Source of the DNA: Petrosia ficiformis
Lineage: Eukaryota; Porifera; Demospongiae; Haplosclerida; Petrosiidae
NCBI GenBank assembly: GCA_947044365.1
Contig: OX345636.1
Location: 30,112,466 to 30,176,465 of the forward strand
Direction of reading: 5' to 3'
Length of the DNA stretch: 64,000 nucleotides
Shown: positions 1-25,300 of the stretch, piece after piece
How the letters are laid out: every line of letters starts with the position of its first letter
Numbering within the stretch: position 1 is the stretch's first letter
Notes under the pieces: model-generated
Told to the model about the DNA's origin: nothing
Seen by the model: only the letters and a program-made list of their open reading frames with translations
The model's database searches: none
Program-made: the position numbers and the translations under genes

Positions 1-514
1 TTTTCTCAATTATTATGAGTATCATAAAAGCATGCTATAATCACAAGAAATGACATTATTGGTACACATTTTACAATATCGGTTACATCTTTCAGTAATA
101 ACCAATACCAATACTAAAAATAATGGCCAAAATGACTGATACCGATTACCAATCCAATTATCGGTGCATCACTAGTAATAAACTACAATACTATCCTAAA
201 ACAACTTACCATAAGTCACTTTTAATTACATGTAATAATGTTAGCGATTGTAGTGACTAACAGAATATTCGCTAAAATTTGTACACGCTAAAAATATATT
301 TTGTGATCATTTTATTAGGCATTTTATTTGGCATGGCTCAGAAATTTGATAAAATTAATACATGCTAATTTCAAGCATTCACAAATCGCTAAATTTAGTG
401 GAAGTGTAGGCTTAAGGTATGAATTATAATTTAGTATTAACAACATCTCAATACATCACACATAATTATGTAACAATGAATTAGAATCACAAACTGAATA
501 TACCGAGAACTTAC

Positions 515-3500
515 TTTAGATGTACAGAAATTGCATTTCCTACAGTGGATATTGTTTTTGTGTACATAACGATTACAATCAGAACAAAACCTGCAGTAAT
601 GCAACATGTAGTTACAAGCTACACTCAATTTTAGTTAATGGTACATCAGAGCAAATCCATTTGCTAAACTTCACAATAATCTAGGATGTAAGACACAGTA
701 GAATTACTTATAGTGTAAATAGATGCAAGGTAGATTGCATAGGGTTATACAATGTGTTATGATATGCAAGTATTAGAAAAAGTCAGAGTGTAAGTACAAT
801 AGTCACAAGTCAAGTCACTATTCTGTCACCATTATTATGTAAATCACCAGTATTCAAACATGGCAGCAAAACTATCAATTTTTTATGGCCTGCCTGATTG
901 CTTTGCAAAGGGGTTAATGTATTATATATTTATATTCTTGTGTCGCTTACATGTACATGCACATATTCGTTGCATAGTAGTTAAGTCATCCCGGGGTTCC
1001 ATCAATTAATGGGCATGGCACATAATCAAACGTGTGTCACTAAATTGAGCTCTACAGACTAGTGGAAAGAAAGCTTATGTAGAAACTGTAATAGCTGTTT
1101 TAATTGAAATGTATTCCTAAAGTTCTACAAGAATCTCACAGGAGTAGATAATAAAAACAAAAAATATAATAGCCTGTGTAAGTCACCCATGATCATTGAA
1201 TGATGGCAACATAAAGCAATCATAGGATACTTTTTTCTTCATATATCTTGTTCAATTGTTAATGTTTCTTTAAGTGTGTATAATAATAAAAGGATGACCT
1301 ATTTCCATGTACTAGAGACGCATGTTTACAAAACTACCATGACTTAAGTGTAAAATTTAATAATATAGTGAACATTTCATATTCACTTACATGTGTATAA
1401 TTACAATGTCACTAACCAGTATCCTTCTTCCTCTGGGAGATGAAGAGCTGGTAGTGAGATGTTAGTGTATATACGAACAGGAGAGGGCTTGCCTCTTTTA
1501 CCTTTTTCACCAAAATGTTTATGCTCAGCATAAGTGATCTATATATAAATTAGACAAAGAAACAACTCAACACAAAGTATTATAGTTTAATGAAATTAAT
1601 ACATAAACAAATACTGTATGTCAGATTAATCGATTTTAAAATTTCAACATTGCTTTGAAGGTTATACAAATAGTTACGGTTAATTCGTTAGTTGATTTAA
1701 TAACACACTCCTAGTGTGGACCCACCACAGCTGTATACATAATGAAGTTCAATGTCGTTAGTATACTATGAATAATAATGAATCAACATATTTTACCTGA
1801 TAATCCATCATAACAAATGATGGGAAAGCTTCTAATACATGAGATTCATTGAAGTATGGAAACATTAACATGGTAGAAACCTCTAGTAAAATTAATAATA
1901 ATGATAATAATGATAACCAAATTACATTTTATGGCTATTTACTTCTTTGACTGTTAAAATGAAACATCTTATTGCAATAGAAAGGCTGAGAAACATTTTC
2001 AAGTGTACAAGTGGACATCGAACCCGTGGGAAAGCAATCATAGGGATGGCCCTACGGGCCATAAAAACTATTTTCAGCAAAAAAATACTCATCATTTTCC
2101 TGAATATAATTACTACAAACTATAATGAATTTACTCGCAGTGCAGAACCCTCGCCACAAGTGTGATTTGGGAAACAAGTATGATACAATCACTGACAAGA
2201 AAATAATTGCCGACAATATTTGACTGTAATAATTATTACAATTATTACAATTATTACACTGTGATTATGTTATATCTGTGTGTGTGTGTGACTTACAACT
2301 TACACTTCAACTCCTACTAGTAGAAGGGCAGTGTTTAAAATCCAGACTTGAAGAATTTAGAAAACAGTTTGGTGGGTTCAATGATGTGGAAGAAATGAAA
2401 TGAGCGGAGCTAGAAATTAACAGAAAACTTTGAGCCAGCTCAAAGTTGTAGCAGCCACCACGTTAATTGTACTTCATTTCAAGCTGTGATTCGACAGCAG
2501 AAGGCTTCACACAAGATGAGTTGTGTTTCAGTGGACTCTTTTGCTACCAAATGTCGTGTGAAACTGCGACAGTGAGTTACAAAAATTGTCATAACTTTAT
2601 AACAGAAAGGTTTTAGCAAAAGGCTGTTGTTACCTTTGATCCTTGTATGTTTTGCTGGTAGTACATGTATGTTCAAAGTGCTAATGTTCGTAGGTTCGCT
2701 GGAATTCTGCCGACAGACCGACAGACAGATGGACAGACAGACAGACAGAACAACTGCAGCAACCCTCCATTCCGCCTATGCAGGCAAGGGTTAATTATGC
2801 AGAGGTAGTTATACATCATTCATGTTCATAACTTTGCCCTGAATTACGGTTTCATTTAATTCTTAGTTACACTAGCTCATACTGCAACATTTCCACATTG
2901 GCAATGCATTTTACATTGTTTGTAGCAGTGTCCTTGGCAAATATAATTATAATACAAATATCATAAACAAGAGCAATCACAATATACGTACAAACAATCA
3001 TGAACCTTGTCCTACTATATCCCAAACAGTGTTTACTCCAGTTCTCAAAGCTTTCATAAGTCCACCAAATGGGGGATCAATGACCAGTAAAATATTTTCA
3101 GGGATAACAGAAATAAGAAAGTTATTCAGTTTTTCTTTTCCCTCCTCTCCTGAGTAGAAGAATCCATTGAACATGTTATATCGTTGGAAATCATTTGAGG
3201 AGTAGAACTGAGCCTACATAATTATTAATTAATAGATCAATAATACCAATCATTATGTATTAAAATACTTACATATCGATAATCAATATCTAAAAGAAAG
3301 CTCTTGACATGTCCAACATCAATTAAGTCTTCATGCAACCTGATTACATGTGAAACAAATTAATAGATAATTAATTAATAATTTAATTCTGGTACCTCAT
3401 GATAAAAAAAGGATTACAAGTTTTGAAAGAAAAATAACTATTCATTAAAAGCTCAGGGTGTCCAGAGCAGTGGCGTAGCTACGGTGTGGCAAGGTATGGC

Positions 3501-6500
3501 AATTGCCAGACCAATCATTACTGTGGTAGACTAGGTGTGGCTTAATTAACTAAAATGCAGAGAAGATTGCCACAATTTTAGTCAAACACGACAAACAGTA
3601 CTACTGATGCAGTTGCTACTGGTTACAATGATGATATAATATGTGTTTGAAACCACCATGATCAGCCTCATGAGGAATTGAAAAGTAATGTGACCAGTAC
3701 TCACTTACATATAGCGCAAGTGGCACTGAGCTCAATCAATTATAATCAACGTGTGTCCCTTTTTAGTGTGTGAAAATTAATTGACCACGCCCCACATAAA
3801 ATTTAATTAGATGCAAAATTTTCGCGGCATGCTTTGTGTGCCGACTATGCTATACCATCAATCAAAGTCTAGCTACATGTACATTCCTAGTCCAGAGCAT
3901 GCTGCTCCATTTTAATTACATAAATGTAATCAATGATTAAAAGTGTGCATCAACACAATTATTTCTCACCTTGGTACACCAAGACAAACTATGTGTGTTT
4001 TCTTCAATCTAGTTATTTCTGATATAAGAAACGCTTGTGTCTTGCCAGAGAAGAAATATTGCTACACAAATGAAAAACTATAATTATTATCTTGCTATAC
4101 AAGTTATTGTTATTAGTAGACAGCAGTTATTGTTCACCTCAAGAAATAATATCTGACAGAGTTATGCTTAAGGTAGTGGTCATGTGCTCTGCCCAATATA
4201 AATACACTTACCATGGTGAACCACCCCCAACTTTACTCTAAGCCATTATACATGTATGTATCATGTGGGAAGCTAAGCTGGAGGCTCATTGTGAGGAGTC
4301 AGGAGCACCGATAAATTGTAAGTCATGAATAGCGTATTGAATACCTTGTTTCTACAATGCCCGTGTCAGGCCATCTGCAAGAAAGAGCATATCATTGGGA
4401 CACACAGTAGGCCTAAAGAAAGAGCTGACTTGAGGTTACTTCTCTTTTGTGGCAGGTATGTCCCTGAAATAGTATGTGGTGGAATTCTTCCAGGTGTTCC
4501 ACAAGAGCTATATTGTCTAGAAACAAGTCTCTCGTATCTACAAATAACTGGAGGCTTTGATAGATACATACTGTAGCTCTGTGAGAAGCTGGATGGAGTG
4601 GCGCAGAGGATGTAGTAGGCAAATGAGCTTCTGGAAAGGATAAAATGCTGGGCACTTCATCTGGGAGTGAAGTTGATGGCAGTGAGAAGGTATGGAGATG
4701 TTAATCATTAAATTAATCGAAGTATTTTGTACACACACACTACCCATTGTTGAGCCAATTTGGCCCATGCTTCAAAACGTATCAAACACTAGCATAGTCA
4801 CAGGGGACCTATGTGAGCCTTGCCTACCAACCAGACATTATGACTAACAAAATTACATTCAAATTGAATAAGTAAACATAAAATAATATAATTTCTCTTC
4901 ACATGAAGGTTTTGTAGCTTTAAAAAGTAAACAAGTAACAGCTTTATCTACTGTATCATTGCCAAATTACATGCAATCATATCACACTTTAAGGCCTACA
5001 GAAACTACAGCAGTAATAGTAAATTTTTAATTATCAATTTAGATGTAAATGAATTAGTAAAATTTTAATAACTGGTAATTGACAGATTATTGTGTAACCA
5101 GTTCACAGCTCTAGTTGTTACATGAAAATCAGACTAGAGTTACATGTAAAAACTTTAGCAGCCACATATCTAGTGAAGGTATACTCCCTTACACTAAATA
5201 TTAGATCATTCACTTTACCATGCACTGACTTTCTGAAACCCACCAACATACATACATTCCCTTTTACATTTTTACAGATTCTTGTTGAATGTCTTTATTA
5301 TTTATTATTTTTAGAATTTGTTTTATTCCATGCTTTAACCCTAAGAGCACTGATGTCACATATGTGTGACATTTGACCCCTACGTGGTTCAGAGTGTGTT
5401 TCTAGCATTAGGAAGCACTCCAAATGTTTGTAATTAGTGTCAGGGACAAGCCCATGAAAATGGCTAAGAAAGTTGATAGTTTTTCGGCTGCCCTTCGGCC
5501 TAAATAATGAGCCCGGGGGGAATTTTAAAGGGGTGTGTCACACCGTTAAATGGAGGTTCGAAGGTGGCATGGCCCCTCACCGCCCACACAATTTAGTGGG
5601 TATCTGAGACATTTCCCTTGCTGTAAAACCCAAAATTGTGGGTGTTTTGTTTACCCCAGTTCCAGTCAAACGAGGGAGAGCACTGCATTTGCCTATGAAG
5701 CGCTTGGGGACTTTCGAATAGCGGTAAGCAAGTTGGTAGAAGTAATACTCCATGTTGGAAAAGGAGCCAAGTTTAGGAAAGAGAAAGTGAACACTGGCCA
5801 AAATATATGCAGCAGACGCAAGTGTTGGAAAAGGGAGGAATTTTGAAAAACATGCTTAAAGTTTAAACTGAATATATCCCTGGCACTCAGGATATAACTA
5901 ATACTTGTACTATGTTTGTATTGCATACATGTTGTATTTGTAGTTACACATTTCTGATGAATTGGGTTAATTGTTGGATGTGGTGCACAAAAGAAAGAAT
6001 GCTTACCAGATACTATAGATGTAAGTTACATGTATTAGATAGCAGCGGCCCAAGGGCATATAGCGCCCGAGAACAAACAAACAAACAAACAAACAACAGG
6101 GATATAACTAAAACTGCCATGCTTCATCTGATTTGTAGTACTAGCAGTTTCTTTGAGGTGCATCATCATAATGATACAAATACATTTGTAATATAAACTA
6201 CTACTCACAGCTTGTCCCTTGTCATCATCCATTGGATATAATAATCGAGAAGGAAAACGTAATTCCACATCATTGAGTTCTTGTCTGATTCTATGTTTAC
6301 TATGATCTTCTGTTGCTGTCATTATCAACATTCCACAATCTTCACATAACCATAATTTGTCTCTTTTGAGTTCAGGTAGTTCTTTAATTTTATCAGCAAA
6401 ATATCGTAAGTTTAATTTAGTTTGGTGTTCATGGAATGCTGCCTTGTACCTTTGTCTCTTCTGATTTGTAAGAGGTTCATCCTCCCAATGAAAGAATTTA

Positions 6501-6646
6501 CAGCATTTTCGAGTACGATGTACAGCACATGCAAAGAATTTTTTGGGTTGCTTTCTTGCATAAAATCTTTCAAACAATAGTGTTGGACCTGTAATTTTAT
6601 TACTCATAAATAATGTTTTATCTAAAATTAGAGAATGGCTTAACAT
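515..6646 (-). CDS. ZCCHC4: ZCCHC4 rRNA N6-adenosine methyltransferase, 3' end missing
   Basis: Seven exons read on the minus strand: 6646-6209, 4061-3970, 3339-3273, 3213-3006, 1882-1797, 1538-1417 and 590-515. All have AG/GT borders and matching phases (363 codons). Exon 1 holds a GRF-type zinc finger (KKFFACAVHRTRKCCKFFHW). Exon 4 holds the methyltransferase motif DPPFGG with LLVI before it. Exons 5-7 carry FPYFNES, PSPVRIYTN and a cysteine-rich stretch (CSDCNRYV, CRKCNFCTSK) matching the zinc-ribbon start of the family. ZCCHC4 is known to methylate one adenosine of 28S rRNA in the nucleolus. The human protein is about 510 residues, so the last third, including the CCHC knuckle, lies beyond the left edge; I found no further exon in 1-510. 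The start ATG at 6646 is the first in the exon; a second in-frame ATG lies 13 codons on. The 3' donor of exon 4 (GTTCAT) is weak. Confidence 0.9.
966..1236 (+). repeat. Dispersed repeat family R1, old copy
   Basis: Diverged copy of a ~330 bp repeat marked by 'gcatagtagttaagtcatcc' at one end and 'aaagcaatcataggatac' at the other. Better copies lie at 52675-53011 (plus), 32893-33215 and 60770-61110 (minus). This copy lies in a ZCCHC4 intron. Confidence 0.6.
2138..2793. repeat. Dispersed repeat with GACA run and inverted AACCCT ends
   Basis: It starts near 'gcagaaccctcgcc' and ends with a GACA microsatellite followed by 'aaccctccattccgcc' and 'gcaagggttaat', so the two ends are short inverted repeats. 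Parts recur at 12090-12285 (same 'ccaatgttcgtag' core and 'ccattccgcctat' end) and, more loosely, at 9004-9452 where the microsatellite is ACTC. A nonautonomous element is likely but its class is unclear. Confidence 0.45.
4062..6208 (-). other. ZCCHC4 intron 1 (2.1 kb)
   Basis: It separates the GRF-finger exon from the exon encoding QYFFSGKTQAF. It holds a slightly GC-richer stretch at 4270-4780 with overlapping open frames on both strands and no recognisable domain, and a short CAAA run at 6071-6098. I saw no coding sequence that fits the host gene. Confidence 0.6.
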
Positions 6647-7040
6647 GATTAGTTACTAAATGCTTTATAATATTATTATAAATTATAATAATTTAAATTC
6701 TATAAAGTAAGCAAGTAATGGGGGTGTGGCCACAATCATGCTCAAGTAATTGTATTTTTAATGTATTACATTTGCTACACTTAACCACTCCAGGGGCCCT
6801 TGCAACGTATGACCACTCTAAGGGCTCTTTCAACATATGACCTACATGTAGGTCACCCTTGTCATCAGGTAAACAATCATTTAGTTACTTGTACCCATAC
6901 ATTTTTACATCACATTGCGGAACAATCTATTACACAACTACTGTTTAAAACTTGATGTCAATGTTTCAAAATTTGCATGGCTTTCACTCAAAACATTGAA
7001 TCACATCAATTTTTGACTTTATGGTGAGCCACACTATATG

Positions 7041-7402
7041 TGTGACTGGATTTGTAAAAACCAAGATTATGGAATAATTATTAATTTTGAGATATGAGTG
7101 AAAATAGACAGCTCTGGATTATCTGGGCAATCACCGTTTTACTACCTAAAAAGCTTCACTAACATCCAGTCATACTTTCAGAAAAGTGAGACATTTTCGT
7201 GTTCCACTAGCCACTGCTAAATATATTTTTAATCATTATTTAATAATTTTTGATCAATCCCTTGCTGCAGCTTTGTGCTTTGCTTGATTGGGATGTACCA
7301 TATATCTTCTATATAGAGCTAATTGAATGCTCTATTCAGGTAATACAAAAATCAATTTTGAAAGTTTATCCCATAAGCCTGGTTTTCGCAAATCCGGTCA
7401 CA
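7041..7402. mobile_element. MITE of the TGTGACCGG family, diverged copy
   Basis: Ends 'tgtgactggatttg' and 'caaatccggtcaca' form a terminal inverted repeat. The interior ('cttgattgggatgtacc', 'ctctattcaggtaatac') matches the copies at 43884-44286 and 52239-52653. It abuts TA microsatellite, which suggests a TA-rich target. Confidence 0.65.
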
Positions 7403-7422
7403 TATATACATATGCATAAAAA

Positions 7423-7486
<64 letters not shown>

Positions 7487-7881
7487 CATTTTTGTACATT
7501 GAATGATAATTACTAAGTATTACTTGCTCACCATAAAAAAAATTTTTTTTAATTAAAAAAAATTAATAATAAAAAAAGATATATAATTATATATATAATT
7601 ATATCATTTTTATACATTAAATGATAATTACTTGCTCACCATGAACACAGTAAGGAGGCTCGAATGTTGTATAAACTATGTCTACACCACTCATCTTTGT
7701 GTTGGTAAATATAAAAAGTAAATCAAGAGGAGGAGTTTAATTAAAATGTCAGCAAGCAAAAATGGAGACTAACACCCACACTTATTAGTTTTAAATTAAA
7801 TTTAATAAAACATTTGTAAAGTAAGTACAGTGAATAGCTAATGAAATTATAATAAAATAAAAATAAAATTATAGACAGTGC

Positions 7882-7887
7882 TTTTAT
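7882..7887 (-). promoter_or_regulatory. Likely polyadenylation signal of the TRAF-like gene
   Basis: AATAAA on the minus strand, about 85 bases past the stop codon of the last MATH exon. It is the closest canonical hexamer on that side, but AT-rich DNA makes such matches common. Confidence 0.4.
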
Positions 7888-7972
7888 TAGGTATAGTCAC
7901 TTTATATAATCATAAGAAATAACTCTAAAATAATTATACATTATAAATTATTGAGAATTATTAAGTGTTTTA

Positions 7973-8490
7973 TTAGGAATGCACAATAACTTTAGAAACT
8001 AGAAAACACAGTATATCATTACGAATATATTCAGTGTTGTTAGTAATATTATAATATAAATCACTGTGTGATATGAACCGATGATAACCCCATCCATCAG
8101 GAGCTTCCTCTCCTTGTGTGACTCTTGTACGAGATTCTATTGGTACATTATAATGTTCAACAGTCTTCTCCACATGTCTCTTATCCTCCCTCCAATTAAG
8201 TAATCGAATGGTGATATCACACTTGAAGGGCCATGTCAAAACATCATCATTTTCACTCTTCATGAGGTACACATACATAGATACATGTGTATCTTCACCA
8301 CTCCCATCACCATTAGCATCTACTCTTATCTGTAGCTTGTATCCATCAAGTCCAGTGTAGAATGGTTTACTCCACCAATGATCCCCAGCTCTTTTATGCT
8401 CAGAGAAGTTATGCATGGATAGTGTACACGGAGGGAGGAGATAGAAAGATTCTGTTCCTGGAGTAACATACCAACTAGGTATTACAGGAC
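7973..8490 (-). CDS. TRAF-like gene exon 5: third MATH domain and stop
   Basis: It begins two bases into a Gly codon ([G]GT CCT) and ends ...VSKVIVHS then TAA, just where normal TRAF MATH domains end. It contains DGYKLQIRVDANGDG, LTWPF and LLNWREDK, the core MATH strands. An open frame continues upstream past 8490, but that part (proline-rich) is intron: it lies before a clean TTACCTTAG acceptor. Confidence 0.85.
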
Positions 8491-11400
8491 CTAAGGTAAA
8501 AGTAACAAACAAATTAATACCAGGGGCAGAGACAGCATGTTCAAAGTGGGGGGCTGATAAAGAGGGGGGGGGGGGGGGGTTGGTTGGGCACAATGATCAT
8601 CAGTTATGATACAGTGGCTGATCTAGAAATTTTAAAAGTAATAGTGGGCAAAGCATGTGGAAATTTTTAGCTCATTAATTATTCATGAGGAGTGTGGTCA
8701 ATGATTTTTTAATTACAACTTCCTCTTTTGGGCACTAAGCAGCCTTGTGTCATATCGAGACAGCTAGTAAATGAAACACATGAATGATCAGATTCACAAC
8801 CAGACTGAGTGTGAGAAGTAACCAGACTTCAATGCAATCCTGACTACTATACTGCTATTGGCAATCATCTGATTCAGATTCAGTTACATCAGACTTTTGC
8901 AGACTAGTAACATCATTACACTGAAGTACACATGTAGTATAATTGTAGGCATATAGTTATTTATGTATACTTAACCATCTTATAAATTATAAATGAATGC
9001 ACTAAAGTGCAGAACCCTCGCACAGTAAATTGCATATGAGGCTGGTTCCACTGTGAGTGGCATGCAATCATGTGATGGCCAATCATGTGATGGCACACTC
9101 CACATGTCTCTTTATGCAACGCTATTCAACTAGAAAACACTACAAAACCCTGCATAGATACTTTTTAACCTCAGATATATACAAAGGTCTGTGACAAACG
9201 GGCATTTCTTGAAGTAGCAACTACTCTAAGTGAACTAACCGAGGCAAGATGTATGCTGAGATTAACAAATCGCTCATATTACGGGACAATCATAACCAAC
9301 AAGTTTGAAAATCTACCTTTAAAATCTGCACGAGTGAGTATCCACGAAGTTTGGGTAGAGACACACTCACACACTCACACACTCACTCACTCACTCACTC
9401 ACTCACTCACAAACCGACTACTATAACCCTCCACCTACGCACTCGGGTTAATAAATGAGTCTGGTTGAGTTGTTGTGTGTACAAGACAGTATCTAGAGAC
9501 ATGTATCTAGAGACACATATCTGTATCCCAGCTAATACACAAGGTTTAGAGGGGATTAAAGTTTGGTTAATTATCAATACTTCACTAACATGTGATGTAC
9601 TAGTTATGTAATTTTAATAATGTGTGTGTAATAATATCATGTTACTACAAAGGGTCTATATGTATATAATATTATACACATATGCAATGTTATTGGGATG
9701 AGACTGAGCAAGCATCTTGTCAGATAGCTGGAAGGTTTGCATTCAGTGTATATATCATAATACATAAACAATATTTGTATGGTATGTATTCCATAACCAT
9801 CTTAATGTTCAAATTTTCAAAACATTCTAATTAAAATTTTCAAAAGTCACGTGCATGTGATAGCTATGATTTTGCTTATTATCAAAAATTTGGTTATTCT
9901 AACTATGCCTTCTCAGGTGTCCCACAATGATTTTATTCTCTAGTATAATATACAATATGTAATTACCTGTATGTATCATAACTTTGGATACTCTGAAACA
10001 GAGTGTGTCGTTGTGTAGATATTCAGTGTTGTTATCAGCATTGTAAGGTAGACTAGAGTGTGCGATGAACTTTCCAACAATTCTTGACTCTGGTGCTGTC
10101 TCTCCATCCACTACTCTTGTCCGATTTGCTATTGATGTATTATAGTGGTTAAGGATCGTCCCTACATGTCCCTTATCCTCCCTCCAGTTCAGCAATTGAA
10201 TAGAAATATCACTATTCAATGGCCATTTCAAAGACCTATCATTCTCCCCCTTCATGAGCCGTACACCTACACTTATATGTGTATCTTTACCAGGACCATC
10301 ACCATTAGCGTGAACCTCTAATCGTAATTTATAACCATTTGCTGTGGTATAAAAAGGTACACTATACCATTCATCATCAACTCTCTTGTGTTCATTATAA
10401 TTGAACATCGTTAGCGTACAAGGAGGGAGGTGTGGGGACCGAGTCTCAGGAGGGATATACCAATTCGGTACATCAGTACCTATGATAATAAAGATAATAG
10501 TGAATACTAATTATAGGATTTTCATGAGGTATATATAGTAACTATAATATTATTAGTGATGCGTAAATATGTTTGAAGAGTATACTAGACACAATATACT
10601 TGATCAGGAATGTATGTGGGTATTAGTCTGGCGTAGCCACACCCTTCACTCGATAAGGAGCTCTGTGAGCGCTCTCGGTTATAGGGAGTTAAAACAAGAA
10701 CAAGAAGGAAATCATTCTCAGGTTTATCTCTGGTAACGATGTGTTTGGTGTGCTACCAACAGGTTTTGGTAAAAGTCTCTGTTACACTTGTTTATCTGGG
10801 ATCTTTGACGACAATGACGTGTTACTGGAAAACCCCGGAGTGCACTGCTTTGAAGAGTCACATTCCAACAAACGACACTATTTAAAACCTTTAATGCAGC
10901 TCCACAAGCAAGACAAATGACAGCCATTCACTCACGCTTTAGTTCACACGAGGAGTGGCTTACAATAACTGGCCAAGCAGCCACAAGTCGGTTATAGGCA
11001 TGTCCCCAGACCCTTCCTCCTCCAAGCGAAGGGTGTGGCTACGCCAGACTATGTGGGTATTGTTTATAATAGATATGTCATGTATTATACATGCAGGTAT
11101 CATAAGTAATTGTAGTATGTGGGTCAGTATAAATAGATATTGTACATGTATATTCCACATGTACATGTAGTATATAAATAATAACTTTCTTTTTAAAGTT
11201 CTTTGCAACTTTCTGGATCTCCATGTAGTATATAGATAAAGTATACGAAAAATACGTGTATTTTATCTGTGTAAGTCTTACATTTTAGTATCTGCTTATT
11301 TCAGAAAGGTCCCTCACAACTTAGTCTGGCGAGCCCAGCCCCTTCGCACGAGAGAGGAAGGGTCTAGCGAAACGCGTGCATTGAAAGGCCAGAAATATCG

Positions 11401-14400
11401 GCCTGGCCAATCGAATTGCAATGATGGCATCATGTGACATAACAACACCTAAGTTAATAAATATGGAGGCGCAAGTTACCTTTGGCTGCTAGTAAACTTG
11501 GATACTCTAGTCTTCATGAAGAGCAAATGACAGCAATCACATCTTTTGCTCTTGGAAACAACGTATTTGTGTCGTTACCTACTGGTTTTGGGAAGACATT
11601 GTGTTATTCTGTGCTACCAGTACTCTTTGATTTACTGAGGGGTCATTCAGTGCCTTCTAGTAGTTGTGTCTTCTGTAGTAGCCCTGATGCAAGACCATGT
11701 TTCTTCTGTAGAGAAACAACAACCCAGGCAAATGGACATCGTGAAACACGTGGACGTTAATTAATTGCATTCTTTGAATTCCGTCGAGACAGATGCGTTT
11801 CGCCAGACTCTTTCTCTCTCGTGCGAAGGGGCTGGGCTCGCCAGACTACTCAGATCATGACTCAAGAGTGGTTCAACCGAAGAACTACACGTGTGCGAAT
11901 CATGTGCACAGTACATGACTGTATTTTAAATAGAGTCAAGGTGGAGCTATATAAAAAGTGGCAAAAGCTAGTGCTAACCAGAATTGTGTTTGATTTGATG
12001 CACGACTTTGCTAGCGATAGCCATGATACAGTAGTAGTTATGTTCAGATGTGTCTAGCAGTCCCAATGACTCTTCTCAAGTCTGGAAACACTGATATATA
12101 TAAATTATCATAACTGTAACCAAAAGGTGTTAGGAAAAGCCTGTTGGTATTTTTGTTCCTTTTATAATTTGAAGTCTGCCAGTAGCTCGTTTGAGCCGCC
12201 AATGTTCGTAGTTTTCCCAATTTTTTGCAAACAGACAGACACACGTATCAATATATCCATTCCGCCTATCCCTTTCAATCGTTAATCTTGCATATGTGCA
12301 TATTCGAAATAATTATAACCACACCCACCTTGATCAAGCATAACATTAACAGTCGCCTCAACACTGCTTACCAATTACTCAAGCCTGCAAGCGAATGCTA
12401 TTTTTCATTTATTCTTCCAACATCCCTTTCTCTATTTAGAAAGCAAGTCACATACATCAACAAGCCATTCTAATCTCTAAGCTGACTTCAAAGTACCATC
12501 AAAGGGCGGACACTTGAATCAAAGCACCGCCCAACCACATTCAACAAAGTGTGGGCGTTTTCGACAACTTGCATGCCTCTAATATACCCTCGTATTTGGG
12601 GTGTTGTACATCCATAATAGTCTACACCTCGCCATGGCCAGCCATGGTAAAACTTGCATAGCTGAGTTGTGACGGGGCCGGGGAATCTGCAGATGGGCGT
12701 GATATGAACGTGCCAAGTATAGTACTTGAGAAAAGTGGCTGCAGACTTTTTGATCTGACGAAGATTGTATAGTAGAGAGCTCGAAACTGTTGGGTATTCA
12801 CAAGTTAAAAGACAAGCAGAAAGAAGCTATATCTTCATTCGTATAGGGGAATAATACTTTTGTTTCCTTGCCAACTGGTTAGTTATTTATGCAGTTCTAG
12901 TTGTACAGTTAGATGATTTGTCTTGCTGTAAGTATATTTTTGCTTCCAGTTTATGAACATTAATCATTCTGTTTCACATCTATGGCAAATAAATAAGGCA
13001 GTGAATCTCGAAGCCTCACTGCTTAACTTTGCTTATTTATGTCATACACAGCTTGAACCATGACGTTTCTTTCTTTAGGTAGAATATCTTGACACAACAA
13101 CAAAACTAGTGGCCTTGTTTAAAGCGGGACATTAATTATCACACACTTATCACACATTTATTTGTCAATAAAATTCCTGGGCAAGCATCACAGTTCAGCT
13201 ATGCAAATTTGACCAGACTCTTTTCCCACATAGCGTGTGAGAGTCTAGTATATCATGATGATTATTTCCCTCTCGCTATAGAACTAGTTTTTTCTCAAAT
13301 AGTTGGTTGTCAAAATCTATATCTTTCTTAAGCTTATATTAATCCACATTGACCACTTTTTTGCAGCATGTTAACCAATGAGTTCCATGTCCACTAACAT
13401 GTGAGCTCCACCTATTTGTACTTCAAAAACTAATTATTTATGCCTCAAACAAAAGATAGTCAATAGTGCCACAGGAATAATTATGTGTATATATATGTAA
13501 TAAACAGTCTCGTAGATTATGATAATTTGAACAAATGACCTTAAGTACTCACATTTCTGCCATTTTGTACTAGATCTAGAAGGCAATGATGTTTGGTTTC
13601 AAGGAAAATGGATACCAGATTTAATGGGCTTCCTATATGTATACAAATGTATATGAAATGGCAGAAAAGGGAGAGAATAACTAGTCATTATTACGGACAG
13701 TGCAATGTGTGTTAGTCAGGGCATGGTCACCAAACCATAGTGTATATATAGATCCACTGAATCATTTGGGTCTAGGAATAGTGCGTGGGGTTGGAATTTC
13801 AACTAATTAATGATTTTCTTTTATTTCCACACTCATCCAGTGTCATTATGGTTAACTTCCTAATATTTAATACATGATTTTCATCTCACACTGACTAATG
13901 TACTGTCCATGATGACTAGTTAAACATTTGTGGGTAAGCATTTGTTTGAAATTATCATGATTCATAAAACTGGTTTCAACAGCCAGTCAGTGACATGCCT
14001 TATTTTTAACTTCCACCTTAAAACCATCACAAAAGAAGTCATTATCTATATTCTGTATACAGACATAATATTCTATACTAAATGTATTAATACATGATGA
14101 GTATACCTGTAGGTATGAGAACATTTCCAATTCGGAAACAGAGAGTATCACTGCTTACATATTCTGTGTTGTTTTCATGATTATAATCTAATTCACTGTG
14201 GGGGATAAAATCTAAGCGACCAAATCCACCAGGTGCCCTTTCTCCTTTAATCACTTTAGAACGATTCTGTAAAGCAGCATTATCATTTAACGTTATAATG
14301 TCTTTCTTATGTCCCTTATCCTCTCTCCAATTGAGAAGATGAATCGAGATATCTCCTGTAAAGGGCCACTTTAATTTATTATCATTGGTACCCTTCATGA

Positions 14401-16972
14401 GGTATACAAACACTGAAACATGTGTGCCTTTACATTCACCTTCACCATTTGCGACTACACATAATTGCATCTTGTAACCATTAGATGATGAATAGAATGG
14501 TGCACTATAATAATCAGCATTAAGTTTCTTGTAGTCAGTAAAATTTGCTACATTTACTATGAATGGTGGAATAGAAGGAGATGACTTTCTAATTAGAGCA
14601 GAATACCACATAGGAACTGTAGGTCCTACGAAAACAAAAATTATAAAATATTAATAATAATCTGTGTATATTGTATAATTTAATGTATTATAATATAAAT
14701 ATAATATGAACTATATACTGACAACCAGAGTTTTTGATAATTTTTTAAGCATGGGCCTAATTGGCTCAACAGCCAATTAACTAAGAGACAATATAATCAT
14801 AATTAACTGTGCCATCTGGCCCTAAAAGAGAACTGTGCAGTGCCAAATAAGAAGCTCTTTCGGCCAATGATGCGCCATATGAGCTTATCAAAACACTGCT
14901 GATAAGTATCAAGTAATTATCATATCATGAATATTATTATATTAACTGTACTTGATATTATATTGTAAAGATAAGTCTCATTTGAGTTACATAGTAACAT
15001 TTGTGACTGAAATAAAGTTTGTGTTTTAAACACAACTTTAAATGTTCACTATTCAATAATTTCAAACAGGAAAATCAAATGGATATTTGATATTCTCTTC
15101 AGAAGTACAAATTTGTTAGCATCCTGTGTACAAAATGACTGAATAATGGAACATAATAATATTATTATAAGTGTTTCACAAAATGAATTAATTATGAACA
15201 GTGTACTCCTTATTATATACATGTGATATTTAAAAGTAATTAATAAGAGAATGTATTGAAATCTCATCACATGTTTACTGAAAGATAATATAAAGAATGT
15301 TTCATAATTTGTTGTACGTAGCTGTTGTAGCATTATCACTTTTTGATGAACACAATTTATGAGTTTTTAAGGGTATGTGCTGGTTAAAGAGATGAGATAA
15401 GTAATAGTTAGAACACACTTTACAGTGATTACGTGTTTTAATGTACGTAGCACGAGGGCGGGTCAATAAAGGTTGAGTTTACATAATGCACGAGCCAAAG
15501 GCGAGTGCGTTATGTAAACGAGACCTTTATTGATCGCCCAAGTGCTACATTGAAACACATAATGCACTGTCAAGTGTGTTCTAAGTGATTTATTGACGAT
15601 CTGGTAAACTACCACTGCTGTTAGAGCTGCTTCGTTAGTAGAGGTGAGCAAAGTGTGCAATAACTAACTTATTGAACGCAAAAGTGTGCAATAAGTGATT
15701 TAATGTTCAATCATGTGACACATTATCTGCACTCTGATTGGCCACAGGTCACATGATCAGCAATAAATGTCCTTATATTTATATATGTATATCAAATTAA
15801 ACTGATCAGACTTTAACTTGTTTAGCTAGACACCTTCCAAGAAACCCATATGCCAAATCAAGCTTCAGTATTTTTATGAAATATCATTCAGGTTAACAAC
15901 TCCCATGATATTAGTGAACAACCAACCCATCATGTACTTAAAACCTGAACATGTGCTAACAAAAGTTAGTAAATACAGATATACATTACCTTTCATTCGT
16001 GATAGCTGTTGTTTCAATTCTAATATCAAATAACAATTGTGTAAAACATTAGCTTGTAGTTGTGCTAGTATTTCTCCATAATCTCTGGTTATTTTGTCAT
16101 CTAGCCTCCTCAGTTCTCTGATCTCTACTTCCATCTGCTGGTGTAGCCTATCTGCCCTTTCTCGTAGCATTTTTAATTCCTTCATCATTTCTTTCTTGCT
16201 TTCCTTTAACTCATTTTCCATTTCTCTTCCATTAGCTTCATATTTCTCATAAGCTTCTTCTAATATCTCAGCACACTCTTCCTCTGTAACATCCTCTAGT
16301 AACATCATCAGGTCATCCGGGACTGTCAGGACAATTTCTTTTTCACTTGCTTCAACCTTCTCTTGCAGCATTTCAATTTCCTCTTGTATTATATTGGTTT
16401 CACTAGTTGTTTTCTCCACGTATAGACACTCATTAGTGAGGTGTCTCTCTTGATCACCCAGCTCTCCCACCCATTCACACCCCTTTTCATTGTTCATACA
16501 ACGAAGTCTCAATTTCAAAAGTTCACCATGTTGTTTTCTATTAAATATGTTAGCATACTCTTTTGTATTACAAGAGGGACATGACTGTTTATTTGCTCTA
16601 GTATGTTCTATACATACCTAAAAATATCAATGATTATAATAATAATAATTATGAGAGTACATGTATTCTCATGTTGTACTGAGTATTATACTGAAATGTG
16701 CATGGGTTAGTCCTTAATGGCTCACAACCCTTGATAATGTGTTTCAAAAGCAGAAGAAAGAAAAAAAAACAGCATTACTATACACTAAGCACAAGGTATG
16801 TTTAGTATATTCTAATTATACTTACCTGACAAATAGGAGTTCCACAACACACTAATACATGTGGTTTTCTCACTACTAACAGACAAACTGAACAATGAGG
16901 TGATTCAGGAGGAAGATCAAGAAATAGGTGGTCTTCATACCCACCAGTAGAAACATTATGATCTTCAGCCAT
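7973..16972 (-). CDS. TRAF-family protein with RING, TRAF zinc finger, coiled coil and three MATH domains
   Basis: Five minus-strand exons: 16972-16826, 16617-15990, 14625-14107, 10479-9967 and 8490-7973. All borders are AG/GT and phases agree throughout, giving 774 residues. Residues 27-65 form a RING-type finger (CSVC, CCGTPIC, CPSC). Residues 89-113 form one TRAF-type zinc finger (C-x6-C-x11-H-x4-C). Residues ~118-257 are a Glu/Lys-rich coiled coil. Three MATH domains then follow, one per exon, sharing WPF and LNWRED motifs. TRAFs are trimeric adaptors, often E3 ligases, that link TNF/IL-1/Toll-type receptors to NF-kB and MAPK; known family members have one MATH domain. The usual Cys-Gly-His of the RING reads CCGT here, so the His ligand is not in its normal place. 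Start chosen as the first ATG ahead of the RING. The alternative is that the MATH exons are used one at a time by alternative splicing; transcripts would decide. Confidence 0.85.
9967..10479 (-). CDS. TRAF-like gene exon 4: second MATH domain
   Basis: 513 bases, divisible by three, phase 1 at both ends. It has GYKLRLEVHANGDG, LKWPL and LLNWREDKGH, and ends CATACAG|gtaatt. Read-through past the donor would give a short tail and stop at 9899, a possible alternative 3' end. Confidence 0.85.
10625..11050 (+). mobile_element. TIR element A carrying a RecQ-like helicase fragment
   Basis: A 24-base inverted repeat (AGTCTGGCGTAGCCACACCC...) bounds 426 bp in a TRAF-like intron. Outside it the 11-mer ATGTGGGTATT is repeated directly at 10614-10624 and 11051-11061, a likely target-site duplication. 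Inside on the plus strand, 10705-10920 encodes KEIILRF then GNDVFGVLPTGFGKSLCY, the Walker A region of RecQ-family helicases, ending at TGA. The expected residues before it (LKQEQ) are in another frame, so the gene piece is broken. No transposase is visible. Confidence 0.7.
11323..11847 (+). mobile_element. TIR element B carrying a RecQ-like helicase fragment
   Basis: Ends AGTCTGGCGAGCCCAGCCCC... and its inverse match over about 50 bases with few mismatches, bounding 525 bp. The interior plus strand (11482-11760) encodes LGYSSLHEEQMTAITSFALG, then FVSLPTGFGKTLCYSVLP, the Q-motif and Walker A of a RecQ-type helicase, then a short unrelated tail. The first nine bases of the TIR equal those of element A. 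I see no matching target-site duplication. Confidence 0.65.
12784..12879 (+). pseudogene. Third RecQ-like helicase fragment
   Basis: The plus strand encodes KLLGIHKLKDKQKEAISSF, an in-frame stop, then GNNTFVSLPTG, again the Q-motif to Walker A part of a RecQ-like helicase. It is interrupted by TAG at 12844 and stops at a gttagt that may be an old splice donor. No flanking TIR of the A/B type is clear, though 'ccagactctttt' at 13215 resembles their right end. Confidence 0.55.
14107..14625 (-). CDS. TRAF-like gene exon 3: first MATH domain
   Basis: 519 bases, divisible by three, phase 1 at both ends, joining directly to the coiled-coil exon (which ends ATG AAA G). It has GYKMQLCVVANGEG, LKWPF and LLNWREDKGH. 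The donor is ACAG|gtatac; read-through stops within seven codons. Confidence 0.85.
15398..15767 (+). repeat. Dispersed repeat, copy 1 of 2
   Basis: About 365 bp with an inverted partner at 35276-35627. Shared marks include 'gtcaataaaggt', 'tgcacgagccaaaggcgagt' and 'ttggccacaggtcacatgat'. It contains internal dyads around 'cgagccaaaggcgag'. No coding potential. Confidence 0.7.
15990..16617 (-). CDS. TRAF-like gene exon 2: end of RING, TRAF zinc finger, coiled coil
   Basis: It starts in phase 0 with the last RING cysteines (VCIEH ... CPSC), then the TRAF zinc finger RCMNNEKGCEWVGEL...H...C. About 140 mostly charged residues follow with heptad-like spacing (EMENELKESKKEMMKELKML). It ends in phase 1, matching any of the three MATH exons. 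The coiled coil is where TRAFs trimerise. Confidence 0.85.
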
Positions 16973-17509
16973 CTCAAAAAGCAAGCAGTGTATGACACAC
17001 CTGAAACTTAATTGCTATTCTCCATAGAGTTTTGTAGTTTATTCATGAGACACAATTTCAAAATTCATAGACTGAGGTTCAATTGAATGTCATCTTTGGG
17101 ATACATTGCATATTCACTATTAAATCAGTAATTGTTATGTTAAAATTGATACTAACACAAGATAATAGTAGTAATTACTATACAGTGTGTAGTAATGTAG
17201 ACGAACACATAAAATTGCATTCATGATGATGATATCATATGATACAGATGTAGATGAAAATTCGTGTGCCTAGCAGAAGCTGAGGGTTTTTCAGAGTTAA
17301 AAGACCAAACTGAAAGGAAATTTTGGCTTGTGGCTTTATTTCTGTTATATTACACTGGTGGAAAGAGCGCTCAAAAGCTGTGTACAAACACTGATTATGA
17401 ATTGAGATGACAGAATAAGTGTGGGTATTAAGGTTGTAGTCTTTTCCGTGGGCGGATGCTACTCCAATCAGTTTCTAGTCTTGCAAGCTTCTTGCTGCAT
17501 ACAATCTGG

Positions 17510-17730
17510 TTCCATTCTGTATTTTTTGGAAGCCACACCCACACGTATAATTATTGGGCCTAAATGTTTTCACTGATAGTTTATTTTCAGAAACAAAGCT
17601 AAACACGGCCCACGGGTGGTGGAGGGGTTCCATTCTGTATTTTTTGGAAGCCACACCCACCCGGGGTATAATTATTGGGCCTAAATGTTTTCACTGATCT
17701 AAACACGGCCCACGGGTGGTGGAGGGGGTG
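17510..17730. repeat. Tandem duplication, two units of about 100-125 bp
   Basis: The stretch from 'gttccattctgtattttttg' through 'cacggcccacgggtggtgga' occurs twice in a row; the second unit lacks a ~25-base piece. Unusually G-rich for the window at its right end (17720-17745). Confidence 0.75.
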
Positions 17731-18974
17731 GTGGGTGGGAAACAATGGCGGGGTAACTGTAGTTGCTCTCTGAGAAAGATCGGAGTTTGGTAGTGTCTAG
17801 AAAGGTAAATTTTATGGTTTCAGTGAAAAGCTACAGAATTCAGCTTTCTTCAGCCTCTTGTAACTTTAAAAGTAATATGAATTTGCAGAAAATGGCTTCG
17901 TAACTTTTCTGGAAATACATTGTACTTGGTGCACGCCATGTAAGGTGGGCGTGGCTTTTGTGGTTTTGTACTTATGTTAATTGGAAAAATGGCAATTTTA
18001 ACAATATTTCTTCAATTACAGGACAATATAAAGCTGATCGGAAGATTTGAAGGTTGCTATTACACCAAGTTAGAGTCATATTATATTATATTCTATTTTG
18101 AAACTGATTGGAGTCGCATCCGCCCACTCCCTAGTACCACCTTAAAACGTTTTTGAATATATATATATAATTATAATAATAATAATAATAAAATAATTTT
18201 GTTTTGCATGGGTTCCGGCCCGTGTGGGTCCAGGTTCAGTTACGCCACTGAAAATGCCTATAACAAAGCATATAATTATGATAATGTATCGTCAGTTGTC
18301 TTAGTTAGTTCATCAGCTGTTGAAGTAAGAGTAGATAATAGAAATAATAACTGTAGTAGGCTGTAACAGTTGTGTTTCAGGCATGAGAAAGTGAGCAATC
18401 ATTCATGAATGCTGGACACCACAAAGCAATCATAAGGATACGTTTTCTCAATATATCTTCTTGTCAATGCACCAAAGTGTGAATTAATTCGGCCTTTTAA
18501 GGGGTCAAAAATCAAAATTTCCATGGGGGGGATGGGGTGCAGGCCCCAGAACACTCTAGATGGATAGTCATATCAACATTATGGTTAGGAACTCTGTCAC
18601 ACTTCAAAGCTAGATCTGCCCCTGATAGAGTGTAAGTTGCAACATGCACACATAATAATTTACACAGTATAATAATTATTCATTACAATCAAGGATTGTT
18701 TATTTGTCAGTAATCATTCTTGTTTACCAATCACACTTGTGGCAAGGGTTCTGCCCTATGAGTGCATTCAATTTAACCTGCAGTTAGTTATAGGAGTTTC
18801 TATGTACGTAATTTTATTTTCCTCAATGCTGATTGGTTTTCCTTCTAGGTAATATTTACAAGTACTAGTTTTCATTCCATCTTCATCTGTATTGACTAGT
18901 ATATATAGCATATGTCATAATAAAGCATAGTGACAGAAAAAAAGCAGTACAATGTATATGTATAATATATAGTA

Positions 18975-21563: not shown

Positions 21564-21650
21564 TGTTTGCCTTCCAAGTTTTGTAAAAAGCTACACGATT
21601 CTCAGGTTGACATGTTTTCGTAATGAACTATCAAATAATGAATGACTTAC

Positions 21651-22329
21651 AGTACTCAGCTTCCATAACTGCAACCACATTCTGATCAGTCGATGGATCA
21701 TCTTTTAACACAGCAATAAGAATAGCAAATTTGGCAGGATCAGCAACAATTTGAGCATGAATGTTTCTCAGTAACTTAGTGGCATTTTCTACTTCAGGAT
21801 CATTATTCAGTCCATTGACTGGTAAAAATCTTTTAATCTCTTCTAAAAGTGGTTCAGTGATAACATGTCTACACAATAGCTCTTCTCCTATTCTATATAT
21901 AGCTACATCCGTCATAACTGCAGCAATATTGTTCATATGTTTCATCATTACTGTCCGAGCATGTTGGATTGACACAAACTGTTCTCCTTTCCCTCCATAT
22001 TCTATCTCCATAGCTCGTATTGCCTCAGCTGCCCGGCCATTGTCATTCAGACAATTTTTCAAAACAAGAATTAGAACCCCCAACTTCGTTGAGTCTTTTG
22101 ATAAAGACATATCAACAGCCGTTAATAGTTTTACTGCAGCTTGATGACGTTTTAAACTTGGGCTTTCTCTACCACTGTCCACATCGAGTTTAAACGGTTT
22201 TGAAATCAGTCCTTCAGCGTAAAAGTCTTTGGAAATCTGTAAAGGATCAGTAATGGCACGACATAGAGCAGAGAAGTGTTTTGTAAGCACTCTTGCTTCT
22301 CTTGATCCGTTACCTCCATTCCTACTCAT
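21651..22329 (-). CDS. First coding exon of a gene with two tandem helical (death-fold-like?) domains
   Basis: Starts at ATG 22329 (MSRNGGNG) and stays open for 226 codons to a strong donor (TACT|gtaagt), ending in phase 1. Two similar ~95-residue units are visible: residues ~18-110 (LTKHFSALCRAITD ... LLTAVDMSLSKD ... LILVLKN ... AMEIEYGG) and ~126-226 (MMKHMNNIAAVMTD ... LLRNIHAQIVADP ... LIAVLKD ... VMEAEY). Each is mostly helical with a conserved ME-x-EY end. The pattern recalls CARD/DEATH-like domains multiplied in sponge genomes, but I cannot name the family from sequence alone. The 3' exons were not recognised to the left. No neighbour informs its role. Confidence 0.65.
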
Positions 22330-25300
22330 CTCCACAAATATAGATCATAAACCACAAAGAATGCAGTCCAGCCCCTCCCATTGTACGTGTTTGGATTCCC
22401 TGGCATACCTTATCAGGTAATTCAGAAACACTAGAGCTACTGCATGTGTCAATTACTTGTTGTGCTATAGATATAGCTGTGCAATGTATGTATAATAAAT
22501 TACATTAAATTCAGCACACACACTTACAGACCTTATATTGATAAATTTAGTTGCAATTGTCAAACTCCACAATTAATTATATATATAATACAAAAATGTA
22601 TCATCATGCAGTTCTTCTTTCATTGGGGAAACATTCACTTGTATATAATAGGTTTCCTACTCTGCATATAGACTGCTTTGCTAATAGTGCTCTCTTTGTG
22701 AGAAATCAATGGCAATGCATTGGACATGAGTGATTCCACACGTTGTATTGTATACCCTGCAGGTGAGTTTATATACTGGACAGATAAGATCAAATTATGT
22801 CACATGACATCTTTTCTTGTGACATATCTTACCTTGAATCAACACTCTCATGTCCCTCATCAGGATATACAATTGTGATACTTAGATGCTAGGGTACATA
22901 TGTTCATCACATGCATGACATATACAAATCAGTCACATGATGAATGTACACACGCACGAGCCTATAACACTCTTTATCTAGGCGAATACGTCTCGACCAG
23001 TCTAGGAGCAATTGGATGGGGTGATTCTCATATATGTTCCTGCTTTTTGATTCTTGGCTGCAAGGTATCAAAATGATGTAGTGATGTAGTGGCCATGCAT
23101 CTGTATTTTCCTGGTGTGCCAAAGAACAAGAGGACTAGGTTAGCAGAGGATTGTGCGGTAGCATGATTGCTGAATCTGCATAATAAGAAGAAATGCATAC
23201 CAATCACTCTCAGATCATTTCTAATTTTCTATCTCGAAGGGAACTCCAGAACATAAATGATATATGTGAATGTAGACAGAGAGAGCTTCATGTTGATGAC
23301 GTTCTCTTTTATACCTACATACTGACCTCTCATAGACCTATATTTGTTTGTTTGCACAATTGTGCTATACTTCACAATACAGTAGACTAATTGTCTAACA
23401 ATATGTTTGTGTAGTAAGAGTTGTCAAGTCAATGTTCTGTATGCTGGATTATGCAAGGATGATTGTGTTAATGTACAGATGTTTGACATGCACAATTAAA
23501 CAAGACAATTCACTTCACTGCTAAAATATACACATTCTGTAGATGGAAATTAACTTCCAATAGTCGTTTGTGATATAGACGTTTTCGTTTGAGATCCAAA
23601 GTGGGAACAATAAATAATATGTACTTTCCCCAATGGCCATTTTTACTCAACAACTCTTATTTTGGATAAGTTATGTAAATATTATCATGATTTTGCATAC
23701 TGTATCAGAGACTCAGAGTACATCCTTCTGTCAAATGATCTGTGATTATTGATTGTGTAATCTTCCTCAGCCTGTTTACACTGGTTAGTACAGTTGCAAG
23801 GAATAGTAATTGTAATGGATATATTATATATGTAATCCGTTAATAATTGTAATTTCAGTTTTCCTATCCAGTCTAATGAAGCAGAATAAATATTTTTTAA
23901 AAACCATTGTTTTCCGAACCTTCTTTGTGCATTAAATATCAGCATGATAATAGATTATAATTGATTATAATTGATTATAATTGATATATATATCTTTTAA
24001 GTAATTTAATATAATTAGTACAAAGTAGCTATGGCGTTAGATGTACAAATCCTGAACAACCAATTGTTAAATCCTTGCAACTTCACTAATTGTTATTTAA
24101 CAATTCTATTTTTGCAGTTTATAAAATGGCACTACTTTCCTATCAATTTAGCACCAATCACTTCTAATATGTGTTAAATTAATCTACTTTTGCTTCATAA
24201 GGAAAAGTGTAGTTTAGTGTTTTATGATTATCCAGAAAAATGTTTGCTCATTTTTCTATAAATATTGAATGTTAGGCTATAGAGATGTACAGCAATTGAT
24301 TGTACTTGTATCGCTTTTCACTTTTGCATGATGAACATCAATGTATGCTTGTTATAATGGCTATGGACCAATGGAAAGGTGAATGGATGCATGGACATAG
24401 TAATGAATGTACATGTATAACTTACATTATTAACAACATAATGATTAAACGTGTTGCTCCCATTCCATTGAGATAGTCAATAGTGACCTACTAAATTAAA
24501 GGGAGGCTAGTTTATGTTGCTGTGAAATCTGTAGGTGGAAGACAAAAAGGATGGACATTTTTCATGTATAGTGGAATTTCATGCTGTATATGGGTCCTGC
24601 AAACTACTTATTACACGTTTTGGCAACATTATGGGTCTGAAGCCAAAAAAGAAACTAGAAACGAGATATACATTATGCATTTTCAATCTGTTAATCCTTA
24701 TTCAGATCACTTTTAGGAAATATCATCACATAACTTAACGTCAGTACTAGTTTACTTTAAGGTATTAATTGGGGCTGCATTGCTGGGTAGAAAAGTTGGA
24801 GTTATACTTCCATCCTGTCCTGTTTCAAAGGTATGAAGTACATTTCTATCAGAGCAATATACTAGCTACCAAAATACTGGTTTTAAGCTATCAAAATTAT
24901 GAAATAATATATGCTTTTTTTTGTTGATTAAAACACAATACATTTTGTATTATTATAATAATAATCACTACATAGTGCAGGTGGAGTTGAAGATATAATT
25001 ACATGTTACAGAGTTTGATTGACTCCTTAATTCTTGTGCGTAATCTATTAAGGGTAAGAAGATACGGAATACATAGTAGCTACTATGTTGTCTTTTAATA
25101 ATAATTTACTGAAGCTAAGAGTAACTGTAACTTCCTTTCTTGTCTGATCAGTAAAATGGTATGTATATAGCAGCACTAAAAAGAACTGATGATGTAATGT
25201 ACTATTGAGAGGATGGAGGAAATGGCCCATTTCCTCCTTCCTCTCAATCTCTTGTGAGCTCACTATGACCTCTGTGGACATTGTGAATATGATTTGTTAG

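Follow-up and report, generated by a model that had tools for sequence, protein, structure and literature searches.

The sponge Petrosia ficiformis carries a gene that reads, in one unbroken frame, as a TRAF-like chain with three MATH domains. The gene lies in a window of 64,000 nucleotides (the whole stretch of DNA that was analysed), where five minus-strand exons join into a frame of 2325 nt, 774 codons followed by TAA, with GT..AG borders at all four introns. As an observation of one gene model, this full in-frame reading is confirmed. Our favoured reading of it, held with moderate confidence, is that of one TRAF-like adaptor chain with three MATH domains, which would act as a trimeric multivalent scaffold and belong to a recombining family.

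Exon 1 (16826..16972, minus strand; residues 1-49) supplies the ATG together with the leading half of a RING-like motif and ends in phase 0 at a GT donor. Exon 2 (15990..16617, minus strand), of which paralogous exons exist, holds the second RING-like half, one TRAF-type finger and a coiled coil, and ends in phase 1. Three MATH exons follow on the same strand: M1 (exon 3, 14107..14625) and M2 (exon 4, 9967..10479) are symmetric phase-1 exons without a stop, and M3 (exon 5, 7973..8490) carries the sole stop codon, TAA. Introns are up to 3.6 kb long. The sequence-only reading had described RING, finger and coiled-coil exons followed by three MATH exons, with a stop in the last one only. The five-exon in-frame model and three Pfam MATH stretches bear out the first point, and the second holds as well: the M1 and M2 frames stay open past their donors into the intron, and M3 ends in TAA. 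Phase 1, which had been given for the joins, was found at e2/M1, M1/M2 and M2/M3; the join between exons 1 and 2, for which no phase had been stated, is in phase 0. Separate RING exons for each MATH exon, named earlier as evidence against a single gene, were not found by tblastn in the first 30 kb of the window, which returned one exon 1 and one exon 2. A genome search with exon 1 likewise gave a single match inside the window, and 31 exon 1-like places at 79% identity or more genome-wide, the window exon counted.

The identity of the MATH domains is robust. A domain search of the 774-residue product, proposed alongside the first description, returned three stretches of TRAF-mep_MATH (Pfam, E 5.7e-78), far beyond chance; by accession, PF21355 and PF22486 give three stretches each. 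When the MATH exons were searched singly, each gave one MATH stretch (Pfam). Identity to M1 is 50% for M2 and 44% for M3; between M2 and M3 it is 58%.

Because all MATH exons are symmetric and in phase 1, other combinations also remain in frame, including e2-M3, e2-M1-M3 and e2-M2-M3, all with the one stop of M3. Phase-1 MATH exons could thus be used one or two at once by alternative splicing, which would place fewer, variable MATH domains behind a shared N-terminal part, and the differences in first-MATH exon among loci with similar exon 2 sequences would suit such a scheme. We nonetheless consider it unlikely. A terminal M1 or M2 would need read-through into the intron, where the GT donors are kept, and since the frames past these donors differ between paralogues, M1 and M2 are not favoured as alternative 3' ends. 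Otherwise M1 or M2 would be joined to M3, giving at least two MATH domains. Moreover, several MATH domains per chain require no splicing at all: an intronless frame of 1184 residues on contig C5 (L036) contains six MATH stretches, with zf-TRAF at 29.2 bits against a cut-off of 27 and a RING under cut-off (Pfam).

Public proteins also speak for whole multi-MATH chains. In a search of public proteins, the best 120 of 186 passing ones were screened with a MATH profile built for the purpose and with a RING pattern that was kept loose. By these measures, all 120 carry at least two MATH domains, 73 show the RING pattern and 47 do not, and 60 of the best 120 of 186 combine the RING pattern with at least three MATH domains. 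Like the six-MATH frame of L036, these 60 are unspliced multi-MATH proteins, which counts against alternative splicing. A variant RING pattern marks an L036-like group, in which 25 of the 36 members found among the best 120 of 186 have six MATH domains; among these best 120 there are also chains with two, four, five or seven. One public relative, P0070, combines a RING and a zf-TRAF, both above the Pfam cut-off, with three MATH domains in a single frame, and in another, P0001, the RING is above the Pfam cut-off.

In the N-terminal part of the window gene, the RING and TRAF finger are weaker than in the sequence-only reading: there is a RING-like motif and a single finger pattern seen by eye, and no RING or zf-TRAF family reaches the Pfam cut-off in the product. 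The RING-like motif is divided between exons 1 and 2, and RING-type Pfam models align within residues 25-70 with scores of 10.6-17.5 bits, their cut-offs being 21-35. Where C-x-H normally has its histidine, the window gene has T (CCGTPIC), as do all five of the paralogues compared. On its sequence, the RING is degenerate, and a ubiquitin-ligase activity of the product's own appears doubtful. The finger reads C-x6-C-x11-H-x4-C (16426..16500, minus strand), and zf-TRAF gave no Pfam match to the product even up to E 5. For residues 1-258, Pfam matches down to the loose limit of E 5 included no B-box family.

A coiled coil before M1 is supported by prediction. AlphaFold2 (AF2) of exon 2 alone, run with no alignment, gives one 97-residue helix (residues 112-208; 15994..16284, minus strand) that abuts the first MATH domain at its junction, with block-mean pLDDT of 84-98. 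The exon 2 model overall has a mean pLDDT of 70.1 and a pTM of 0.35, the RING and finger part being poor. Coiled-coil heptads are predicted in the helix, as the mean heptad contrast is 3.57 against 1.97 in shuffles, with 0 of 2000 shuffles reaching 3.57; the best heptad window scores 5.42 (p 0.005). Together, the predicted helix and its heptad contrast suggest a TRAF-N-like coiled coil before the first MATH domain, in line with the earlier assignment. Such a predicted coiled coil would be in keeping with a trimer that displays nine MATH domains.

A coiled coil, and hence trimerisation, is no rule among multi-MATH relatives. The AF2 model of P0070, built with 25 sequences, has no long helix preceding the MATH domains, and none is seen by eye before MATH in P0001, P0012 and L036. 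This raises another account, in which the three MATH domains of one chain pack like the TRAF cap as a covalent pseudo-trimer and make trimerisation unnecessary. A MATH count of three, as the window gene has, or of six, as in the L036-like group (25 of 36, among the best 120 of 186), would be expected on such an account, as would a P0070 without a long helix; the chains with two, four, five and seven MATH domains would not. The P0070 model shows three folded MATH domains on loose linkers (mean pLDDT 75.4, pTM 0.54), so that no fixed MATH arrangement is predicted, and Foldseek places TRAF5, TRAF3, TRAF1, TRAF2 and TRAF4 foremost among its best 50 of 793 matches. Given the loose linkers, the pTM of 0.54 and the chains in which MATH occurs two, four, five or seven times, the pseudo-trimer was dropped as lead reading; the window gene itself retains a predicted coiled coil, and we judge intramolecular packing of this kind distinctly improbable.

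Nine MATH domains need not mean nine receptor-binding sites. We take R393, Y395 and D399 of TRAF2, with its serine tongue, to form the receptor-peptide groove, the R-x-Y positions binding receptor tails. M3 matched 28 PDB sequences, all 28 of them TRAFs, with TRAF5 ranking first. Aligned to the TRAF5 chain, the R-x-Y pair becomes C-x-V in M1, E-x-H in M2 and R-x-D in M3; the Y is altered in all three domains and the R is retained only in M3, while the third groove position is D or E in M1, M2 and M3. Because the pair is altered in M1 and M2 and only half kept in M3, the nine receptor-binding sites per trimer proposed in the sequence-only reading are not to be assumed. Elsewhere in the Petrosia genome, three other TRAF-like frames keep R-x-Y, with S-S-S in two and S-P-S in the third, and the 3.4 kb around each contains one MATH match. 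From these frames, canonical TRAFs seem to coexist with multi-MATH genes in Petrosia.

The window gene is one of many. The genome searched comprises 191,215,263 bases in 29 contigs (C1, 63,279,122; C5, 8,526,170; C11, 6,121,522). Of 352 first-look MATH candidates in it, 150 were scored and every one of them was above cut-off, so that the genome has 150 or more MATH matches. Separate searches with M1, M2 and M3 scored 150 matches each, of 377 to 379 candidates, and the matches fall into classes. The order e1-e2-M1-M2-M3, with a stop after M3, recurs in a tandem copy beside the window and at C1:3.40 Mb, C11:2.34 Mb and C1:8.89-8.91 Mb; the C11 paralogue fits the whole gene into about 3.5 kb. With paralogues and public proteins built in this way too, the layout is no singular case. 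The tandem copy apart, identity to the window M2 is as high as 78% among M2 exons elsewhere, against 58% for the window's own M3. M2 is closer across loci than to its own M3, and the MATH triplication would therefore predate the spread of the genes.

The tandem copy calls for caution about the locus itself. Window positions 1..18145, measured from window base 1 rightward, are repeated nearly identically, a second whole gene copy included, directly before the window (contig positions 30091087-30108977). The three main pieces of the repeat are 98.8, 99.3 and 99.4% identical and the last piece, of 398 bases, is 89% identical; within the exon 2/M1 intron, the match skips about 290 bases. An adjoining copy so similar over its main pieces could be an uncollapsed haplotype, and 13 haplotypic duplications were removed in the curation of the Petrosia ficiformis assembly, according to the part of its description consulted (PMC12648040). 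The locus could also hold remnants of tandem exon duplication and make no such protein, and three loci of the family (L021, L029 and L032) are indeed broken. We give this account of decay or artefact only a slim chance. All five exons are present in the copy and open in both genes, the exon order is kept on another chromosome, and a haplotypic origin of the copy would leave the window gene standing. Most exons show no synonymous change between window gene and copy, so that no dN/dS ratio can be formed. Against the C11 paralogue, dN/dS (NG86) is 0.30 for e1, 0.34 for e2, 0.33 for M1, 0.35 for M2 and 0.38 for M3; these values speak against decay of any of the five exons, and the ratios below 1 for the three MATH exons hold against C11, one distant paralogue. 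In other pairs the maxima are 0.61 for M1 and 0.68 for M3, with 1.25 in one e1 pair of 44 codons and no dS in one M1 pair.

A dense cluster at C1 6.28-9.04 Mb extends the pattern. From it, 147 minus-strand matches, picked by class from the searches with e2, M1, M2 and M3, were sorted, with lower-identity classes, plus-strand matches and other contigs left out. M1, M2 and M3 stand in order in 33 of 41 units (the M2 class being uncertain in one of the 33), and 22 of those 33 have an e2 in front; the remaining eight of the 41 are without M2, M3 or both. With e2 or M1 as the cutting point of each unit, the position of M2 before M3 is the only independent test of order, and in 33 of 33 ordered units the first M2 stands ahead of the first M3. 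Two units hold five MATH matches. Neither an e2 nor an e1 match occurs in 15 of the 41, indicating that an array can exist without this particular RING exon, unless the exon has diverged so far that the search misses it. With introns of up to 3.6 kb and tens of kb between matches, these units are exon orders rather than proven genes. The pairing of the e2 at 8076687 with an M1' 56 kb away, for example, is probably wrong, because a broken MATH exon (L021) adjoins that e2.

Exon phylogenies point to a mosaic. Trees of e2 and M1 were built from 19 loci, leaving out L021, L029 and L032 with their broken exons. The window e2 is 82-85% identical to that of the e2a genes and 65% identical to that of L037; the window M1 is 80% identical to that of L037 and 48-54% identical to that of the e2a genes. 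In the M1 tree, the window gene, its copy, L037 and L033 split from the rest with a support of 1.000. The e2 tree opposes this by splitting L033 and L037 from the rest (0.880), and it places the window e2 with that of L030 (0.702). Four e2a loci (L018, L023, L024 and L026) carry a first MATH exon of a third clade (0.998). Judged from these trees, first-MATH exons are mosaic between loci, as would follow from an exchange of exons or from a longer array whose members were lost differentially.

These observations can be assembled into the favoured reading of a TRAF-like scaffold. The chain would consist of a degenerate RING, one TRAF finger and a long coiled coil followed by three different MATH domains, with all three MATH exons presumably spliced into one mRNA. 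If the coiled coils form parallel trimers as in TRAFs, a trimer of such chains would carry as many as nine MATH domains on one stalk, with three kinds among them. It could then gather several partners or repeated tail motifs together as a multivalent scaffold with weak or no ligase activity. Whole symmetric phase-1 MATH exons may be exchanged between loci of a large recombining sponge family, and such exchange would vary the set of binding surfaces that follows an N-terminal part of similar kind. The chain may take part in immune or self/non-self signalling. More speculative, and tentative at best, is the proposal that Petrosia maintains a repertoire of TRAF-like adaptors with several MATH domains, renewed by recombination, for intracellular recognition of symbionts, viruses or self/non-self, with three variable MATH cassettes swapped as symmetric exons behind a similar RING-like/coiled-coil part. 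If this were true, sponge intracellular recognition would hold its diversity in the adaptor rather than in the receptor. In TRAF signalling, avidity is understood to come from three identical MATH domains in the trimer; a TRAF-like chain that naturally holds three unlike ones opens the contribution of valency and mixed specificity to study.

Several known systems invite comparison. The statement that no TRAF of such layout has been described stands for the literature searched, and does not extend to public data, where the layout is frequent; we have here a three-MATH TRAF-like chain in a large sponge family. No animal RING protein with at least three MATH domains was among the literature matches listed, from a search with most subscription papers and preprints outside it, and a term search of parts of PMC6321704, PMC12465263, PMC12909245 and PMC4704026 gave nothing on multi-MATH RING proteins. 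TRIM37-like TRIM proteins of mosquito and Branchiostoma also belong to a RING ligase family in which some members have more than one MATH domain, up to two in the sections consulted, and those of Branchiostoma are said to resemble MATH-UCH domains (PMC3503706). They differ from the window gene in their B-boxes, unmatched there, and in having at most two MATH domains (PMC3503706, same sections). Plant tandem-MATH proteins (MATHx2 and MATHx4) likewise hold several MATH domains in a single chain, but the excerpts consulted describe these sequences as MATH-only (PMC3503706; PMC3664471). MATH is said, in the part consulted of PMC8195603, not to be expanded alongside TRADD-N expansions, for example in the sponge Amphimedon. 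The 150 or more MATH matches in Petrosia bear on this statement as a lead rather than a contradiction, because Petrosia is not Amphimedon and the TRADD-N search was uninformative: the Pfam model had no matches in Petrosia and was silent in 14 of 14 control genomes too, so that co-expansion of TRADD-N has no support either way.

Closer in layout are L036, P0001, P0012 and P0070, which share a RING-like start, TRAF fingers and three to six MATH domains per chain. They differ from the window gene in being single intronless frames with no long helix (P0070 by AF2, the others by eye), and the RINGs of P0001 and P0070 exceed the cut-off, unlike that of the window gene. TRAFs as a rule carry a single MATH domain per chain. 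With TRAF2, 3, 4, 5 and 6, the window gene shares an N-terminal RING-like motif, a putative TRAF-type finger and a predicted coiled coil abutting a TRAF-type MATH domain, and its product has the TRAF-type MATH (TRAF-C) of the family at its C-terminus. It departs from the TRAF family in a RING that is under cut-off and without its histidine, in an altered R-x-Y pair, and in having three MATH domains rather than one.

The whole TRAF-like gene lies within a tandem duplication of ∼18 kb or more, in which window positions 1-18145 match an adjacent stretch of the same contig (C1:30091087-30108977) by sequence comparison. This duplication also takes in the stretch of a GRF-type open frame downstream of the gene (window 6035-6652, minus strand), whose Pfam zinc-finger match is weak (23.0 bits, cut-off 25.9). 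The second copy arose by a recent segmental duplication or else is a haplotype that escaped purging. A further minus-strand frame of 237 residues (window 21631-22344) matches no Pfam family up to E 0.1.

Two plus-strand helicase fragments sit within the intron between the first and second MATH exons (window 10693-10920 and 11461-11760). Their Pfam DEAD scores, 20.9 and 24.8 bits, both fall below the cut-off of 26, and the fragments are perhaps mobile-element or processed remnants.

Elsewhere in the genome, MATH matches are densely clustered on contig C13 (5.00-5.17 Mb) in long open frames, mostly of ∼350-510 residues, some of which are also matched by the RING-like exons.

On contig C5, an intronless frame (L036:30-3581) joins a RING-like region, zf-TRAF and six MATH domains. 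Its RING reads CCGNHIC and, as in the window gene, lacks the usual C-x-H; among the matches listed, CGNHIC is the most frequent form in public proteins with the variant RING pattern (22 of 36).
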